Source of the DNA: Pelagerythrobacter marensis
Lineage (GTDB): Bacteria; Pseudomonadota; Alphaproteobacteria; Sphingomonadales; Sphingomonadaceae
Length of the DNA stretch: 64,000 nt
Direction: 5' to 3'
NCBI RefSeq assembly: GCF_036700095.1
Contig: NZ_CP144918.1
Span: 1,551,001-1,615,000 of the forward strand
The notes below the pieces were generated by a model, which did no database searches, was not told the origin of the DNA, and saw nothing but the letters and a program-made list of their open reading frames with translations. Position 1 is the first letter of the stretch; the number at the start of each line of letters is the position of its first letter. The position numbers were made by a program, and so were the translations under genes. Of the stretch, positions 16,373-53,658 are shown piece by piece.

Positions 16373-16452
16373 GAGCCCCGGCGAAGGCCGGGGCCTCGGG
16401 CCACTGGCGCTTCGCCTGCTGCCTGAGGTCCCCGCCTTCGCGGGGACACGCG
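16373..16452 (+). repeat. Family A palindromic repeat between rpoA and rplQ
   Basis: Two palindromes (cores GCCCCGGCGAAGGCCGGGGC and GTCCCCGCCTTCGCGGGGAC) sit about 35 bases apart in opposite orientation, with the spacer CCACTGGCGCTTCGCCTG. It resembles a REPIN-type pair. Confidence 0.8.
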
Positions 16453-28847: not shown

Positions 28848-31697
28848 TCAAGCCTTTTTCTTGCTGGCAGTCTTGCCGTTGCGCGCGGCCTCGCCGCCGT
28901 CGTTGAGGCCCAATGCCATCGAGACGAGGCAACGCTGCTGCTCCTCGTGCCGTTTGGCAAGGCCGGTTGCGGGGGAGGCGGCGACTTCGCGGCCCGCGTA
29001 GCGCGGGCGCATGCCGTCATGCCCGGCGGCGGAGAGCGCTTCCTCGATCTGGCTTTCGACGAAGAACCACGCGCCGTTGTTCTTCGGCTCTTCCTGGCAC
29101 CAGATAACCTCTTCCAGATTGGTCATCCGGCCCAGGCGCACCGCCAGCGGTTCGCCGGGGAAGGGGTAGAGTTGCTCGATCCGCACGATCGAAACGTCGT
29201 CCAGCCCGGCCTCGTCGCGCTTCTCGATCAGGTCGTAGGCGACCTTGCCGCTGCACAGCACGAGGCGGCGGATCTTCTCGTCCTCGATCTCCGTCGTATC
29301 GCTGACGATGCGGCGGAAATGGCTTTCGCCGCGGAATTCCTCCGCCGCGCTCTTGGCCATCGGGTGGCGCAGGAGCGACTTGGGCGTCATGATGATCAGC
29401 GGCTTGCGGAACGAACGCTTCATCTGCCGGCGCAGGACGTGGAAATAGTTCGCCGGCACGGTGATGTTGCACACGCAGATATTGTCGTTCGCGCACAGTT
29501 GCAGGAACCGCTCCAGCCGGGCGGAGGAGTGTTCCGGCCCCTGGCCTTCGTAACCGTGCGGCAGCAGCATCACCAGCCCGTTGGCGCGCAGCCACTTGAC
29601 CTCGCCGCTGGCGATATACTGGTCGATCATGATCTGCGCGCCGTTGGCGAAATCGCCGAACTGCGCTTCCCACAGGACCAGCGTTTTCGGGTCGGCCATC
29701 GCGAAGCCGTATTCGAAGCCGAGCACGCCATATTCCGAAAGCGGACTGTCGTAGACTTCGAACTTGCCGTGCGGCAGCTGCGTGAGCGGGATGTACTTGT
29801 GCTCGTCGGTCTGGTCGATCCACACAGCATGCCGCTGGCTGAAAGTGCCGCGGCCCGAATCCTGGCCCGACAGGCGCACGCCGTAGCCTTCGGTCACCAG
29901 GCTGCCGAAAGCGAGCGCTTCGGCGGTCGCCCAGTCGAACCCTTCGCCGGTGTCGAACATCTTGCGCTTGGCCTCGAGCACGCGGCCCAGCGTGCGGTGG
30001 ATCGTCAGATCCTCCGGCACTTCGGTCAGCGTGCGGCCGAGGCTGTCGAACAGCTTGTCCGAAATCGCGGTTTCGACATTGCGGCGCGCGGTTTCCGGGT
30101 CCGCCGGCTTGTTGAGCCCGGCCCAGCGCCCGCCGAACCAGTCCGCCTCGTTCGGTTTGTAGCTCTTGGCCGCTTCGAACTCTTCTTCCAGCTCCTTGAC
30201 GAATTCGGCGCAGAGCCGATCGCGCTCGCCTTCGTCGATCACGCCCTGTTCCACCAGGCGCGCGGCGTAGATCTCGCTCACCTTGGGGTGGTTCTTGATC
30301 GCGTCGTACATCAGCGGCTGGGTGAACTTGGGTTCGTCGCCCTCGTTGTGGCCGAACCGGCGATAGCACCACATGTCGATCACGATGTCGCGGCCGAAGC
30401 GCTGGCGATATTCGACCGCCAGCTTGCAGGCGAAGGTCACCGCTTCCGGATCGTCGCCGTTGACGTGCAGGATCGGCGCCTGGACGCCCTTCGCCACGTC
30501 GGACGGGTAGGGCGAGGAGCGCGCGAACTTGGGGCTCGTGGTGAACCCGATCTGGTTGTTGATGACGAAGTGGATGCAGCCGCCGGTGTTGTACCCGGCC
30601 ACGCCGGAGAAGCCGAAGCATTCCCACACGATGCCCTGGCCGGCAAAGGCCGCGTCGCCGTGGATCAGCACGGGCAGGACCTGCTCGTGCTTCTTCAGGT
30701 CGTCGCGGATCGCCTGCTGGGCGCGCGTCTTGCCGAGCACGACAGGATCGACCGCCTCGAGATGCGAGGGATTGGGCACGAGGCTCATGTGCACATCGAT
30801 GCCGTCGAACTCGCGATCCGTGCTGGTGCCGAGGTGGTATTTCACGTCGCCCGATCCGCCCACGTCCTCCGGGTTGGCGCTGCCGCCGGAAAATTCGTGG
30901 AAGATCACCTTGTAGGGTTTGCCCATAACGTTCGCGAGCACGTTCAGCCGCCCGCGGTGGGCCATGCCGTAGATGATCTCGCGCACGCCCGACTGGCCGC
31001 CATACTTGATCACCGCCTCGAGCGCGGGGATCATCGATTCGCCGCCGTCGAGGCCGAAGCGCTTGGTGCCGACGTATTTCTTGGCGAGGAACGCTTCGTA
31101 TTGTTCGCCGCGGACCACGGCGGCCAGGATCGCGCGCTTGCCCTCCGGCGTGAACTGGATGACGTCTTCGGGCCCTTCGAACTTTTCCTGCAGGAAACGC
31201 CGTTCCTCGACATCGGCGATGTGCATGTATTCGAGGCCGACCTTGCCGCAGTAATTCGCGCGCAGCAGCTCGGCCAGCTCGCCGACCTTGACCCACTCGC
31301 GCCCGAGCAGGCCGCCGACGTAGACTTCCTTGTCCTCCTGCCCGTCGAACCCGTGCCATTCGAGGCGGAGGTCTTCGGGCAATTCGCGATTGCCCAGGCC
31401 CAGCGGATCGAGATCGGCCGCCATGTGCCCGCGCACGCGGTAGAGCCGGATCAGCAGCATGGCGCGGATCGAATCCGATGCCGCTTCCTCGACCGCCTTG
31501 GGATCGGCGGCCTTGCCCGCTTTTTCCGCCGCGGCCTTGACCGCGACTTTCATCGCCGTGGGATCGAGCGCCTGGGTCAGGTCGCTTTCGGAATCGATCC
31601 CGGTCAGCGGCCAGCGCGGGTTGCCCCAGCTCGGCCCCGGCTGCGGCCCGTCCTGACCGGCCAGTTCGGGGAGGAAATCGTGGTTTTCGTTACTCAT
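28848..31697 (-). CDS. sucA: 2-oxoglutarate dehydrogenase E1
   Basis: Thiamine diphosphate-dependent decarboxylase of the TCA cycle. It has 949 residues from ATG 31697 ([14 protein letters not shown]); a TTG four codons earlier is less likely. Family features are the [15 protein letters not shown] region, the ThDP site around [15 protein letters not shown], and the C-terminal [13 protein letters not shown]. The order sucA-sucB-lpdA fits a complete complex. A repeat-bracketed nuclease-like gene lies between it and sucD. Confidence 0.96.
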
Positions 31698-31716
31698 TCG
31701 ATCACTCAATCACTCG

Positions 31717-31797
31717 ATGAGCCCCTGCGAAGGCAGGGGCCTCCCTCCGCCTGCGGAGCGCCGGTGGCATGAGGTCCCAGCCTGCGCTGGGACTCGC
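31717..31797 (-). repeat. Family A repeat, left bracket of the GIY-YIG gene
   Basis: Palindrome cores GCCCCTGCGAAGGCAGGGGC and GTCCCAGCCTGCGCTGGGAC stand about 40 bases apart. The element ends 2 bases before the stop codon of the GIY-YIG gene. Confidence 0.82.
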
Positions 31798-31799
31798 TT

Positions 31800-32105
31800 C
31801 TAGGCGAGAAGGTGCGATAAATCCTCCCATCCGGGATTCACCTCCTCGACCCGCTTGATCTTCCACTCGCGCTTCCATGCCTTCATCCGTTGTTCGACTT
31901 CGCGGGCGTCGTGAATATTCTCGAACTGCTCGAACCATACGAGGCGGTGACACTGATACCGGTGGGTAAAACCCTTCACAGCACCGGACCGGTGCTGCTC
32001 GATGCGTTCTGCCAGATCGTTCGTCACCCCGATGTAGAGCACTCCGTCCTTTCGGTTCGTCAGAATATAGACGAAGCCTTCGCTCAACCGTTCCGCCTCA
32101 TGCAT
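31800..32105 (-). CDS. Small GIY-YIG nuclease-domain protein
   Basis: A 101-residue protein that is nothing but a GIY-YIG domain: VYILTNRKDGVLYIGVTND carries the two-part motif, followed by the Arg helix (LAERIEQH) and a Glu in REVEQRMKAWKREWK. ATG 32105 is chosen because the upstream in-frame codons are translated repeat sequence. The gene is bracketed on both sides by family A repeats, which abut the start and nearly touch the stop. It interrupts sucD-sucA. Such single-domain proteins are common, but their substrate is mostly unknown. Confidence 0.85.
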   Translation of the reverse strand: MHEAERLSEGFVYILTNRKDGVLYIGVTNDLAERIEQHRSGAVKGFTHRYQCHRLVWFEQFENIHDAREVEQRMKAWKREWKIKRVEEVNPGWEDLSHLLA

Positions 32106-32188
32106 GAGCCCCAGCGCAGGCTGGGGCCTCCGTCCATCCGGCAGAGCGCCAGTTGCACGAGGTCCCAGCCTGCGCTGGGACACACGCT
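32106..32188 (-). repeat. Family A repeat, right bracket of the GIY-YIG gene
   Basis: Cores GCCCCAGCGCAGGCTGGGGC and GTCCCAGCCTGCGCTGGGAC are about 40 bases apart. The element begins at the base next to the ATG of the GIY-YIG gene, so any ribosome binding site must lie in repeat DNA. It ends 15 bases before the sucD stop. Confidence 0.82.
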
Positions 32189-32202: not shown

Positions 32203-33093
32203 TCACGCAAGTTCCTTCAGCATCGCGTCGAGCGTCGTGCCGAGTTCGCTGGGCGAGGGCGAGACGCGGATGCCGGCTTTCTCCATCGCGGCGATCTTGT
32301 CGTCGGCACCGCCCTGGCCGCCGCTGACGATCGCGCCGGCATGGCCCATGCGGCGGCCCGGAGGGGCCGTGCGGCCGGCAATGAAGCCGACCATCGGCTT
32401 TTTACGACCCTTTTTCGCCTGGTCGGCGATGAACTCGGCCGCTTCTTCCTCGGCCGAGCCGCCGATTTCGCCGATCATGATGATCGACTTGGTCGCGTCG
32501 TCGGAGAGGAACATGTCGAGCACGTCGATGAAGTTGGTGCCGTTGACCGGGTCGCCGCCGATGCCGACAGCGGTGGTCTGGCCCAGGCCGACCTGCGTGG
32601 TCTGGTGCACGGCCTCGTAAGTCAGCGTGCCCGAGCGGCTGACGACGCCGACGCTGCCCTTCTTGAAGATCGAGCCGGGCATGATGCCAATCTTGCACTC
32701 GCCGGGCGTCAGCACGCCGGGGCAGTTCGGGCCGATCAGGCGCGACTTCGAACCGTCGAGCGCGCGCTTGACCTTGACCATGTCGAGCACCGGAATGCCC
32801 TCGGTGATGGCCACGATCAGTTCCATCTCCGCGTCGATCGCCTCGAGGATCGAGTCCGCGGCGAAGGGCGGCGGGACGTAGATGCAGCTCGCGGTCGCGC
32901 CGGTCGCGGCCTTCGCCTCGGCAACGGTGTTGTAGACCGGCAGCCCGATATGCTCGGTGCCGCCTTTGCCGGGCGTCACGCCCGCCACCATCTGCGTCCC
33001 GTAATCGAGCGCCTGCTGGGTGTGGAATGTGCCGGTGTCACCCGTCATGCCCTGGGTGATGACCTTGGTGTTCTTGTCGACGAGGATGGACAT
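32203..33093 (-). CDS. sucD: Succinyl-CoA synthetase alpha subunit
   Basis: Binds CoA and carries the phosphohistidine in succinyl-CoA to succinate conversion. It has 296 residues, with the CoA-binding [15 protein letters not shown] variant, [19 protein letters not shown], and the phospho-His segment [17 protein letters not shown]. The beta subunit gene sucC, usually just upstream, is not in this window. In its place is a small secreted-protein gene. Confidence 0.96.
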
Positions 33094-44134: not shown

Positions 44135-44327
44135 CAGCCCACCCCCGACCCCTCCCGCAAGCGGGAGGGGGGAGGTCTCTCACAGCGAAGGCGCGTCCCC
44201 TCCCGCAAGCGGGAGGGGAGCGAGACTTGGTGAGCGCAGCGAACCTAGTCGCAGCGGGGTGGGCCCCAGCGCTTGCGGGAGCGAGACTTGGTGAGCGCAG
44301 CGAACCTAGTCGCAGCGGGGTGGGCCC
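44135..44327. repeat. Family B repeat array on the stop-codon side of the DUF559 gene
   Basis: Several units occur: the palindrome CCCCTCCCGCAAGCGGGAGG (twice), then the segment GCGAGACTTGGTGAGCGCAG plus CGAACCTAGTCGCAGCGGGG in two direct copies about 61 bases apart. The right end runs into the DUF559 gene: its last residues (GPPRCD) and TAG stop are encoded by the repeat. Confidence 0.85.
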
Positions 44328-44668
44328 TCGCGCAACGCCAGCCGAATCGCCGTCACAACCCCCTCGACATTGTCGCGAACGTCTTCGTTCATGAAACGCA
44401 GCACCCGGTACCCCTGGCCGCGCAAATACCGATCGCGCACGACATCCCGCTCCGGCGCCACGTCGTGCGACCACCCGTCGAGTTCCACGACCAGCTTGTG
44501 CTCGCGGCACAGGAAGTCGGCAAAGTACGGCCCGACCGGCATCTGCCGGCTGAACTTCACACCAAGCTGCGACTTGGAGAGATACTGCCAAAGCGTCCGT
44601 TCCGCGAGAGTGGCCCGATTGCGCAGCTCCCGCGCGCGCTTCGTGTTCCGCGGTTTGAATGTCGTCAC
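44306..44668 (-). CDS. DUF559 (Vsr-like) nuclease-domain protein
   Basis: A 120-residue protein. GTG 44668 is chosen since the upstream in-frame codons are repeat sequence. The DUF559 domain, related to very-short-patch repair endonucleases, is visible: RNRATLAERTLWQYLSKSQL, then FADFLCREHKLVVELDGWSH with the acidic residues expected for metal binding, then DRYLRGQGYRVLRFMNEDV. Family B repeats stand on both sides, and one supplies the C-terminus. The natural substrate of these proteins is not known to me. Confidence 0.85.
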   Translation of the reverse strand: MTTFKPRNTKRARELRNRATLAERTLWQYLSKSQLGVKFSRQMPVGPYFADFLCREHKLVVELDGWSHDVAPERDVVRDRYLRGQGYRVLRFMNEDVRDNVEGVVTAIRLALREGPPRCD

Positions 44669-44679
44669 CGTAGCACTGT

Positions 44680-44880
44680 GCCCACCCCCGACCCCTCCCG
44701 CAAGCGGGAGGGGAGAGGCTCTCGCAGCGAGGTATATCCACGCGGCCACCCCTCCCGCTTGCGGGAGGGGCGCGAGACTTGGTGAGCGCAGCGAACCTAG
44801 TCGCAGCGGGGTGGGCCCCTGCGCTCGCGGGAGCGAGACTTGCTGAGCCGGAGGCGAAGCTAGTCGCAGCGGGGCGGGCC
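44680..44880. repeat. Family B repeat array upstream of the DUF559 gene
   Basis: The same units as at 44135: CCCCTCCCGCAAGCGGGAGG-type palindromes at 44691-44713 and 44750-44770, and two copies of the GCGAGACTTG...GTCGCAGCGGGG segment, the second diverged. It begins 11 bases upstream of the DUF559 start and ends 13 bases before the Hsp20 stop. Confidence 0.85.
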
Positions 44881-51120: not shown

Positions 51121-53658
51121 ATGTCCGATCGATCTTTCGACAAATTCACGCTCCCCGGCGACATTCCCGACGATCCCGGCTCCGCCCCCTCCCGCGTGCG
51201 GGAGGGGAGCGAGACTTGCCGCGACGCAGTCGCGGTTAGTCGCAGCGGGGTGGGTTCCGATGGGGCGCCCGAGGACGGGCCCACCCCCGGCCCCTCCCGC
51301 AGCTCCCCGCTTTCGCGGGGACAGGTGTCGGGGGAAAGTCGCGTCCCCACGCAGGACTGGCTCGCGCGCGGGCTCAGGCATCCGGCGGGGCGGGGGTGGG
51401 AGGTGGAGCCTGCCTCCGGTGCGAGCCCCCGCGAAGGCGGGGACCTCGTGCAATCTGGCGCTTCGCCTGACGGCCTGAGGCCCCCGCCTTCGCGGGGGCG
51501 CACCGAGGACGCGGGCGCTCCGCTCTCCCACAGCGCGCTCGACGCCCGGCTTGCCGAATACGGCGTCGCGCTGCGGCCGGAGCCGGGCAGCAAGCCGTGG
51601 CCGGGCGGGTGGCTGCCGGGCGATCCGCCGCTCCTGATCGACACCGGCCTCGGCGACACCGGGGATGCGGCCGATCCTTACGCGCACTCGCGCGTGTTCG
51701 ACCGCGCGCGGCAGGTGCGGTTCCTCGATGCGCTGGCGACCTGCGGCGAAGTGCGCGCGGCGGCGGCGCGGGTCGGGGTGAGCCGCGAGACCGTCTATCG
51801 CACGCGGCGGCGCGATCCCGATTTCCGGCGGCTGTGGGAGGCGGCGCTGATCCACGCGCGCGCGCAGGCCGAATCGGAGCTGGCCACCCGCGCGCTCCAC
51901 GGGGTCGAGGTGCCGGTCTTCGTGCGCGGCGAGCATGTCGCCACCTGGCGCCGGCACGACGCGCGGCTGCTCCTCGCGCACCTCGGCCGGCTCGACCGGC
52001 GGGTGGAGGAGGACCATGCCGCCGCCGCGCGCGCCGACCGGTTCGACGAGCTGCTCGCGGGGCTGGCCGGGCACGCGCCGCCCGCGGATCTGGCGGACGA
52101 CCTGGCCGGGGCGGCGCGGGCGCGCGATCCCTATACCGTGGCCGCGCAGGAGAACCTGCCGCCGACGCGCGAGGAATGCCTCGCCCACACCCGCGACCGC
52201 ACGCTCGCCCGCTTCGCCGAGCCGGACGACCGGTGGGAGCTGTGGGGCGATGCCGGCGCGGATGCGGACGACGAGGGCGAGGAGGGGGCCGAGGAAAGCG
52301 CGGCCGAGGCCGAGGCCCTGCGCGCCGAGGAGGAACGCCACGCCGCCCGCTGCGCCGCCGTCGCCAGCGCCGAGAGCGAAACCGCCGCGCTCTACGACAC
52401 CTGGCAGGCGCAAGCCCACGCCCACCTCGACGCAATCCTCGCCGAAGCGGAAGGCGGCGAGGAGGCCGACAACGAGTCCCTGCGAAGGCAGGGACCTCGT
52501 GCCCCCGGCACTCCACCCGAGGACACGCCCGCGCCCGACGACCAGGCGGAGGGAGGCCCCAGCCTGCGCTGGGGCTCGGGGGAGGGGGAGGGGGCGCCCG
52601 CCTCCCGACCCGAGTCCCCACCCGAGTCCCTGCGAAGGCAGGGACCTCATGCCCCCGGCGCTCCGCCCGAGGACATGCCCGCACCGGCCGACCAGGCGGA
52701 TGGAGGCCCCAGCCTGCGCTGGGGCTCGGAGGATGGGGAGGGGGCGCCCGCGTCCCGACCCGCGTCCCGCCCACCCGAGTCCCTGCGAAGGCAGGGACCT
52801 CAGGCCACTGGCGCTCCGCCCGAGGACACGCCCGCACCCGACGACCAGGCGGAGGAAGGCCCCAGCCTGCGCTGGGGCTCGGAGGAGGGGGAGGCGCCCG
52901 CGTCCCGATCCAAGACCCTCCCCGAGTCCCTGCGAAGGCAGGGACCTCGTGCCCCCGGCGCTCCACCCGAGGACATGCCGGCACCGGCCAACCAGGTGGA
53001 GGGAGGCCCCAGCCTGCGCTGGGGCTCGGAAGAGGGGGGAGGGGCGCCCGCGTCCCGCCCACCCGAGTCCCTGCGAAGGCAGGGACCTCATGCCCCCGGC
53101 GCTCCGTCTGAGGACACGCCCACACCGGCCGACCAGGCGGAGGGAGGCCCCAGCCTGCGCTGGGGCTCGGGGGAGGACGCGCCTGCTGCGAAAGCGCGGT
53201 CCGCTCCCGCCGCCCGGTGCGGCAAGCGGGCGCGGCGGCGCAGGGCGGCGAAGGTTCGCGCGGCGCGTCGGGCGCGTGCCGCCGCCGGCGTTGCGGGCGC
53301 GGCCGGGCCGCCGGTCGAATACAAGTCGCGCGAACGCGGGCTTGCGTCAGCCGGCCTGGGCGGGGCGCCTGAACCGTGTCGCGCGTGTCAACCCGGCGCG
53401 CCGTCGTCGCAGCGCAGCCACGGTTCGCCGATTGGCGCGGACCCTGCGCGGCGGGGCATCATTGGGGCGGATGAGGAGACGGCGCGCGGCCTTTGTTCTC
53501 CCTCTCCCTTTTCCCCTCCCGAGGTTTCGCGCGTCGTTTCCCGTCCCTTCGGGACAGGAGCGCGTCCGCAAAAACCACCGGGCGGACGTGCGGCAGGGGC
53601 TTCGCCTTGCGCGGGGTCCCTGCCATCCCCGCGCGCGGCGCGCAGGGCAGGGCGATGA
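51121..53658 (+). CDS. Helix-turn-helix protein carrying many in-frame repeats
   Basis: An 845-codon open frame; AGGAG 8 bases before ATG 51121 supports the start. The plausible core (about residues 138-450) has a helix-turn-helix, EVRAAAARVGVSRETVYRTR near residues 210-230, followed by DPDFRRLWEAALIHARAQAE, reminiscent of small-terminase or transposase-type DNA binders, and an acidic coiled region. The rest is translated repeat DNA: a family B and a family A element in residues 20-125, and five family A units at residues 452-683. A basic, Ala/Arg-rich stretch follows. The gene ends tail to tail with rlpA. Whether the repeat parts are made as protein is uncertain. Confidence 0.65.
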   Translation: MSDRSFDKFTLPGDIPDDPGSAPSRVREGSETCRDAVAVSRSGVGSDGAPEDGPTPGPSRSSPLSRGQVSGESRVPTQDWLARGLRHPAGRGWEVEPASGASPREGGDLVQSGASPDGLRPPPSRGRTEDAGAPLSHSALDARLAEYGVALRPEPGSKPWPGGWLPGDPPLLIDTGLGDTGDAADPYAHSRVFDRARQVRFLDALATCGEVRAAAARVGVSRETVYRTRRRDPDFRRLWEAALIHARAQAESELATRALHGVEVPVFVRGEHVATWRRHDARLLLAHLGRLDRRVEEDHAAAARADRFDELLAGLAGHAPPADLADDLAGAARARDPYTVAAQENLPPTREECLAHTRDRTLARFAEPDDRWELWGDAGADADDEGEEGAEESAAEAEALRAEEERHAARCAAVASAESETAALYDTWQAQAHAHLDAILAEAEGGEEADNESLRRQGPRAPGTPPEDTPAPDDQAEGGPSLRWGSGEGEGAPASRPESPPESLRRQGPHAPGAPPEDMPAPADQADGGPSLRWGSEDGEGAPASRPASRPPESLRRQGPQATGAPPEDTPAPDDQAEEGPSLRWGSEEGEAPASRSKTLPESLRRQGPRAPGAPPEDMPAPANQVEGGPSLRWGSEEGGGAPASRPPESLRRQGPHAPGAPSEDTPTPADQAEGGPSLRWGSGEDAPAAKARSAPAARCGKRARRRRAAKVRAARRARAAAGVAGAAGPPVEYKSRERGLASAGLGGAPEPCRACQPGAPSSQRSHGSPIGADPARRGIIGADEETARGLCSPSPFSPPEVSRVVSRPFGTGARPQKPPGGRAAGASPCAGSLPSPRAARRAGR
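51183..51300 (+). repeat. Family B repeat inside the helix-turn-helix gene
   Basis: CCCCTCCCGCGTGCGGGAGG, then GAGCGAGACTTGCCGCGACG and TAGTCGCAGCGGGGTGGG, match the units around the DUF559 gene. A facing copy of the CCCACCCCCGGCCCCTCCCG end lies at 51280-51299. Confidence 0.78.
51423..51500 (+). repeat. Family A repeat inside the helix-turn-helix gene (N-terminal part)
   Basis: GCCCCCGCGAAGGCGGGGAC and CCCCCGCCTTCGCGGGGG palindromes stand about 35 bases apart with a CTGGCGCTTCGCCTGACGG spacer, nearly identical in layout to the copy at 16373. Confidence 0.8.
52474..53170 (+). repeat. Tandem array of five family A units in coding frame
   Basis: Each unit has a left palindrome (GTCCCTGCGAAGGCAGGGAC) and a right palindrome (GCCCCAGCCTGCGCTGGGGC). 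Units begin at 52474, 52624, 52777, 52924 and 53065, so the periods are 150, 153, 147 and 141 bp, all multiples of three. The translated unit reads SLRRQGP...PSLRWGS each time. Confidence 0.88.

Follow-up and report, generated by a model that had tools for sequence, protein, structure and literature searches.

The window, by which we mean the whole 64,000-nucleotide stretch analysed, carries a solo GIY-YIG nuclease gene (31800-32105, minus strand; 101 amino acids plus stop) between sucD, its upstream neighbour (32203-33093, minus strand), and sucA, its downstream neighbour (28848-31709, minus strand), so that the minus-strand order is sucD, nuclease gene, sucA, all on the same strand. The nuclease belongs to the group called clade A below. 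Palindromic elements of one family (family A) lie on both sides, each in the form of a REPIN with two hairpins: 31717-31797 on the sucA side (hairpins 31721-31740 and 31774-31793) and 32104-32188 on the sucD side (hairpins 32108-32127 and 32162-32181). Two bases separate the stop codon (31800-31802) from the end of the sucA-side element at 31797, and the ATG (32103-32105) touches the REPIN beginning at 32104/32106, which bears out the close bracketing reported in the preliminary description. An alternative start, the in-frame GTG at 32183, would extend the gene through the repeat to a 127-aa ORF. The two REPINs are mutual copies (direct identity 89% over 44 nt and 88% over 32 nt; inverted arms 86% and 92%). 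Pfam identified the GIY-YIG domain in the window ORF (E 5.6e-16; 2.9e-16 for the 101-aa form), and GIY-YIG and T5orf172 were the only domains that it found in the protein.

The family A repeats form a dispersed population. Queried against its own genome by blastn, the 472-bp block gave 116 matches, itself included, the others being partial. Elsewhere in the window, REPs of this type were mapped between 16375 and 17042 (at 16375, 16447, 16970, and 17042), and a tandem array of window-type REPINs to 52476-53166. The array comprises five REPIN-bearing units of ~147 bp each and is found inside long overlapping ORFs. The REPs on either side of the window gene thus also occur at many other places in the genome, a property shared with RAYTs, and the likeness to REP-associated transposases proposed earlier holds up in this respect. 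The arms of the window element read GAG(T/C)CCC...GGG(A/G)CCTC or near and lack the CGTC/TGTC tag; judged by its letters, the element is a REP type related to the CGTC REPs but differently tagged. About 11 family A REPIN pairs in the same genome are spaced 610-660 bp apart, start to start. The intervening segments of the three pairs that were read (L006, L007, L008) are similar and hold no recognisable gene; such pairs are perhaps a larger non-autonomous unit.

GIY-YIG domains were found at six places in this genome, namely five solo genes, all of clade A, and one domain in a 666-aa frame. Framing was scored as the best local inverted repeat between the 200-bp flanks of a gene, with a pass at 14 or more. 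All five solo genes have such a repeat (scores 20.5-34.5), and the palindromes differ from gene to gene. The four solo genes outside the window carry REPs tagged CGTC or TGTC when read from the outside in, with variants of the tail; one of them has CGTCATTCCCGCGAAAGCGGGAACCCAGA on one side and its near-inverse on the other.

In an alignment of 28 proteins, the window protein included, Y13, Y24, G26, H38, E71, and N90 are invariant; we take the Tyr, His, Glu, and Asn among them to be catalytic, as expected of a GIY-YIG active site. Among 26 cassette-gene pairs for which dN/dS could be estimated, 24 gave 0.06-0.32 and the remaining two, both recent, 0.46 and 0.76; three pairs gave no estimate, several dS values were saturated, and the pairs are not independent. 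From these ratios, the nuclease is evidently under purifying selection.

For the wider survey, sequence motifs served to define clades A, B, and C once the first flanks had been inspected; one locus that the motif script read otherwise (L163) was assigned to clade B by hand, and clade A then comprised 145 loci. Inverted palindromes were found at both ends of the solo gene at 122/145 clade A loci vs. 2/435 control intervals, which rules out chance framing of GIY-YIG genes. The remaining 23 loci had no such inverted repeat, and 11 of these fall among the 26 that were tested outside the Alphaproteobacteria, where 15/26 named loci were framed. By record title, the latter come from Gammaproteobacteria, Desulfobacteraceae, Nitrospirae, Flavobacteria-like genera, a cyanobacterium, Phycisphaerales, Atribacteria, Zixibacteria, Omnitrophus, Cloacimonetes, and others, several being metagenome bins.

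Separate samples gave similar values. Among the best 80 of 503 relatives confirmed by profile search of genome contigs, 55/73 loci scored at least 14 (controls 0/219), after six had been skipped, their best profile hit lying near the end of a stretch, and one (L156) had been moved to the weak group described below; a first pass with other gene boundaries had given 56/75 vs. 3/225. Within the order, 67 of 71 different clade A genes passed, compared with 2/216 controls. These 71 are 67 strong matches (of ~109, mostly the top ones, some on short contigs being passed over) and four sucD-sucA genes, and they include the genome's own five. Two further sets were counted separately from the 122/145: 19/20 cassettes of the genus scored at least 14 (a set that overlaps with the own and the sucD-sucA genes), as did 10/12 hand-picked clade A loci of a plasmid collection. 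Two of those ten plasmid loci, L289 and L447, have palindromes other than CGTC REPs. At L447, on a Planktothrix agardhii plasmid, the gene has a type IIL restriction enzyme on one side and DISARM drmA on the other; the inverted repeat there scores 15 and no CGTC REP was seen. The clade A gene of Neisseria gonorrhoeae has ATTCCC...GGGAAT palindromes on both sides. Regular flanking by palindromes, which the preliminary description had suggested looking for in related genomes, is found at clade A genes.

The weak matches, 27 of 33 with six fragments left out, were joined by L156 to give 28 loci, of which 17 were framed vs. 2/84 controls. By motif, 20 of the group belong to clade B (..KGWSRAKKEALI.GDW..) and 7 to clade C (GAKYTRGR), which we take to be YhbQ-like. 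Framing was found at 17/20 clade B loci and at 0/7 clade C loci, or 0/14 different genes when further motif-checked clade C loci are counted, and so is ruled out as a property of all small GIY-YIG genes. The window protein lacks the clade C pattern GAKYTRGR. Clade B genes from beyond the order, taken from a 299-genome draw of the phylum, were framed in 11/13 cases vs. 1/39 controls, two further genes having flanks too short to score. At two loci (L161 in G036 and L267 in G004) the clade B gene lies just before another gene, presumably JAMM-type, and in G036 its frame runs into that gene.

The palindromes at clade B genes are a separate REP superfamily, CCGTTCG..CCTGAGCTTGTCGAAGG. A GAGCTTGTCGAAGG-type core was detected at 13/17 framed clade B loci vs. 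0/122 framed clade A loci, and the remaining four B loci have, by eye, core variants such as GAGCGAAGTCGAG. A rough script found the CGTC/TGTC tag facing outward on at least one arm at 78/122 framed clade A loci (on both arms at 58) and inward on both arms at 3 of 122; the other framed loci have GTGC, GAG, or other types or are untyped. Because this typing is rough, with some arms called "other" or wrongly "GTTCG", the distinction of A from B rests on the count of the GAGCTTGTCGAAGG core. The palindromes differ with the nuclease lineage, with no single family for all copies. Neither of the outcomes named beforehand as refuting a cassette, a gene present throughout the order without flanking repeats or repeats equally common beside random genes, was found.

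Repeat copy number was compared with gene content in 118 genomes using covariance models for the CGTC REP (R1) and the clade B REP (R2). Filters were strict, a count of ~63 per genome means at least 63, and genomes without a listed match were scored 0. R1 reached at least 8 copies in 42/52 genomes with clade A (one of which, G114, has only a broken gene) vs. 18/66 without (Fisher p 4.9e-9, kinship ignored), and R2 reached at least 8 in 13/15 genomes with clade B vs. 8/103 without (p 2.7e-10, kinship ignored). The same 15 genomes were confirmed as clade B carriers by a search with the B profile. Within the genomes with clade A, R2 was high in 13/13 that also have clade B vs. 6/39 that do not (p 4.3e-8). 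Cross-clade links are weaker yet present (R2 by clade A, p 1.8e-6; R1 by clade B, p 2.9e-4), since genomes rich in one REP tend to be rich in the other. Orphan CGTC REPs also occur, with many copies in 18/66 genomes that lack clade A, and copies are few in 10/52 that have it. With the kinship of the genomes ignored, these counts indicate that REP copy number follows the presence of the matching clade.

Protein and repeat are also matched at a finer level. Across 52 named loci, protein identity correlates with REP similarity (rho 0.45; 0/999 permutations). A paralog test designed to remove species relatedness was applied to 13 genomes with at least two framed paralogs. In clade A, the paralog nearest in protein carried the nearest REP in 234.5/369 tests, with ~120.7 expected; when REPs were shuffled among paralogs within genomes, the observed match was reached in 0/2000 permutations. 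The 369 tests are mutually non-independent, and the match fails in a third of them.

No simple dosage rule links the window REP type to its gene within the genus: the densities are mixed, and such a rule was rejected. Per 100 kb, with cassette arms removed, genomes with an occupied junction had 9.1 (G000), 4.0 (G003), 2.7 (G006), 1.8 (G002), and 0 (G008) window-type REPs, and those with an empty junction had 0 (G005), 0.4 (G001), and 6.7 (G004). In 100-kb stretches chosen blind to the site, none were found in G000, G006, G008, G005, or G001, two in G003, and 11 in G004.

A clade A gene is present between sucD and sucA in 5/29 sucD loci (G000, G002, G003, G006, and G008, each checked with the profile), G008 belonging to another genus. 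The window has a full REPIN on each flank, while the other species occupied here have a single palindrome per side, G002 being an exception with two palindromes on one side. In the congeners G001, G004, and G005 the junction is empty, as the preliminary description had thought it might be in close relatives, with a spacer of 97-99 bp that holds no palindrome of this kind. By eye, the empty spacers fail to align with the occupied ones, so the comparison shows gain or loss of the cassette and no insertion point. In the protein tree, the window protein pairs with its counterpart from Sphingomonadales bacterium 63-6 (support 0.89), and the remaining four proteins are sister to this pair, with support of 0.91 for the lineage of six. 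All six lie at sucD-sucA, in each of the six genomes where the lineage was seen. The tree of this site departs from the genera: the window and 63-6 copies are sisters, with sucA proteins that share only 65% identity across the compared part. Window gene and lineage look settled at sucD-sucA while the repeats turn over. No movement of the gene was observed. No target-site duplication was seen at sucD-sucA, L266, or L267, where empty and occupied spacers diverge, and the lineage keeps to one site.

Other sites give closer comparisons. Seven Sphingobium plasmid records have a cassette at the fnrL junction and four do not. TomTYG64, one of the four, has a single REP tagged on both sides (CGTC-palindrome-GACG), which equals the left tag joined to the right REP; TomTYG74 has the same both-tagged REP with mismatches, and none was found at this site in TomTYG72 or TomTYG65. 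In Sphingobium TomTYG73 (L297), the cassette nuclease gene has a one-base deletion relative to three other aligned copies. At gltA-lpxB of Sinorhizobium, a single both-tagged REP in K101, its left tag less exact, corresponds to the cassette of Ak57. Sinorhizobium meliloti Ak57 (L288) holds a truncated and a full clade A cassette in tandem, which is why the Ak57-K101 alignment is ragged. At the L192 site, G204 lacks the cassette and holds an inexact both-tagged REP, and no REP was seen by eye in 20 other relatives without the cassette. The spacers without a cassette at L266 and L267 lack such a REP and differ from the occupied ones by more than a simple insertion. Exact both-tagged single REPs are otherwise rare, with three distinct places, TomTYG64 included, among ~240 CGTC palindromes in the fetched DNA. 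Fusion of the outer halves of both end palindromes would leave such a both-tagged REP; slippage from one repeated stem arm to the other could also yield it, without the nuclease.

The second nuclease cassette that the preliminary description had pointed to in this window was also confirmed as a member of a palindrome-framed family. It is a DUF559 nuclease-like ORF (44306-44749, minus strand; PF04480, E 4.4e-36, residues 35-139), presumably PD-(D/E)XK-like. Palindromes CCCCTCCCGCAAGCGGGAGGGG lie beside it at 44149-44218 (44149-44170 and 44197-44218) and matching ones on the other side at 44692-44770 (44692-44713 and 44749-44770), so that the gene is framed by CCCCTCCC...GGGAGGGG palindromes over 44149-44770. 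Framing was found at 5/5 DUF559 loci in the fetched DNA, three of them probably orthologous (controls 0/15), and at 8/10 plasmid loci chosen from 33 records (controls 1/30). Several of these cassettes lie inside operons, for example between sufB and sufC in Sphingomonas parapaucimobilis; the same junction in Azospirillum lipoferum holds a clade A GIY-YIG gene. The literature matches listed for DUF559 included none with that name.

Framing, the matching of clade and repeat, the copy-number link, purifying selection on the nuclease, and the occurrence of given sites both with and without the cassette, all read directly from the genomes, point to a partnership of nuclease and REP like that of the RAYTs, with an unrelated enzyme and a putative cutting mechanism. 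We consider this reading likely. Clade A and clade B nucleases would each recognise the palindromes at the ends of their own gene, a type that also recurs around the genome in REPs and REPINs. A nuclease gene with a REP on either side would be the autonomous form, the part that RAYTs play for GTAG REPs, and REPINs would be nuclease-free passengers acted on in trans. The enzyme may cut the REP when this is folded into a DNA hairpin or cruciform. Since enzymes of the GIY-YIG type hydrolyse DNA and are not known to link covalently to it, break-and-copy or excision is to be expected, not strand transfer of the HUH type. Spread could thus proceed by break-and-copy through host repair, or by excision that joins the outer halves of the end palindromes. 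An Arabidopsis GIY-YIG enzyme of the SLX1 lineage resolves Holliday junctions, according to a passage in PMC9071465, which makes the cutting of cruciform REPs by a GIY-YIG enzyme plausible by analogy.

A homing-like process would be an alternative: the nuclease would cut REP sites that lack the gene, repair from a gene-bearing copy would convert them, and REPINs would be the empty alleles, with no excision. The GIY-YIG domain is a homing-nuclease fold, the cassette can be read as a REPIN with a gene in its loop, single REPs occupy three sites without a cassette, and the window and 63-6 copies are sisters despite 65% identity in sucA, which would fit an exchange of the site. However, little beyond the REP is common to genes framed at different places, which would offer little homology for repair, and at the L192 site a REP was seen by eye in only one of 21 relatives without the cassette. 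We regard this process as possible, with some doubt. Less still speaks for the nuclease being a passenger, perhaps a defence or repair gene, in REP-bounded DNA that another transposase moves. REP-bounded pairs ~610-660 bp apart do recur in the genome, and the three that were read lack the nuclease, but nuclease lineages track repeat types, as a passenger need not. Moreover, no tyrosine transposase gene was CGTC-flanked and the few other transposase associations were called fortuitous in the relevant passages of Di Nocera 2013 (PMC3733652), and we judge this explanation unlikely.

The same source places REPs generally near the 3' ends of genes, as far as its passages on location go (PMC3733652), which fits repeats that act as terminators or RNA stabilisers, or REPINs that often insert nearby, with no recognition of repeat by enzyme. 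Ends that are mutual inverted copies, with controls at 2/435, are not what mere neighbourhood predicts, nor is the lack of framing (0/14) in like-sized clade C genes of the same order. Clades A and B have different repeat superfamilies, and the matching of protein to REP survives permutation within genomes; hitchhiking or regulation is the most improbable of these explanations.

Whether this partnership belongs to a general pattern, we hold to be an even question. REP families would then generally be replicators, each paired with a small solo nuclease of its own, and the folds of these nucleases would be unrelated: HUH (RAYT) with GTAG, GIY-YIG clade A with CGTC and variants, GIY-YIG clade B with GTTCG...CTGAGCTTGTCGAAGG, and DUF559 with CCCTCCC...GGGAGGG. 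Cassettes of the GIY-YIG and DUF559 kinds would constitute a new class of mobile elements, moving through cleavage of their own palindromes. Matched framing in several phyla suggests several origins of repeat-nuclease partnerships, with unrelated enzymes, and a likely role follows for many small genes whose only annotation is "GIY-YIG nuclease family protein" or "DUF559". In the open-licence literature, searched largely by title, none of the papers listed joins GIY-YIG with repetitive extragenic palindromic sequences or REPINs, the matches for GIY-YIG and REPIN being, by title, all on restriction enzymes; the term "GIY" is absent from PMC12306157 and PMC6006769. With the wider association found here, the guess of an undescribed repeat-nuclease class has held within that literature.

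Several known systems share parts of this arrangement. Homing endonucleases of the GIY-YIG type have the catalytic domain in common with the window protein. The window gene, however, is intergenic, with no intron, palindromic ends, and no further Pfam domain, and its match to the group I intron endonuclease model (21.2 bits) is below the cut-off of 56.05; the features of that group were thus looked for and not found. The solo proteins of the YhbQ/UPF0213 type (COG2827-like) have the same domain and a size similar to clade A, and the clade A profile finds the solved chains PDB 1zg2 and 1ywl (E 6.2e-8 and 2.5e-5). Unlike clade A, the YhbQ-like clade C has no flanking REPs (0/14).

The closest match among the repeats is the CGTC superfamily, which in a passage of Di Nocera 2013 (PMC3733652) is described by a CGTC/TGTC tag, an 8-bp stem, a loop of 4-5, a CCA tail, and inverted dimers, and is said to "apparently lack a dedicated transposase". 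Tag, palindrome, and CCA-type tail recur, with tail variants, at the ends of the clade A cassettes of the genome's four other solo genes. While the passages on these repeats in PMC3733652 report no dedicated transposase, a nuclease gene is found here inside such dimers, and N. aromaticivorans, A. lipoferum, and S. meliloti, which are named there, have clade A genes between CGTC REPs. Repeats recorded in 2013 as apparently enzyme-less (PMC3733652, as excerpted above) thus gain a named, testable candidate, and the solo GIY-YIG gene is a good candidate enzyme for a large class of scattered bacterial repeats.

The nearest system overall is the RAYT or REPtron. Membership of the RAYT and IS200-IS605 families was rejected for the window gene, which has no HUH or Y1 domain and no GTAG tag. 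RAYTs are described as single-copy, vertically inherited genes in a passage of PMC8049555. Such inheritance is close to the look of the window lineage, which keeps to one site, yet the genome has five clade A genes, and several paralogs per genome are frequent in the order. Both systems share a small enzyme gene framed by REPs, scattered matching repeats, enzymes specific for their repeat (here predicted), and long-term conservation. They differ in the enzyme, HUH/Y1 there and GIY-YIG here, in the tags, GTAG there and CGTC/TGTC, GAG, GTGC, or GTTCG types here, and in the paralogs, which in this order often have different repeat types within one genome.
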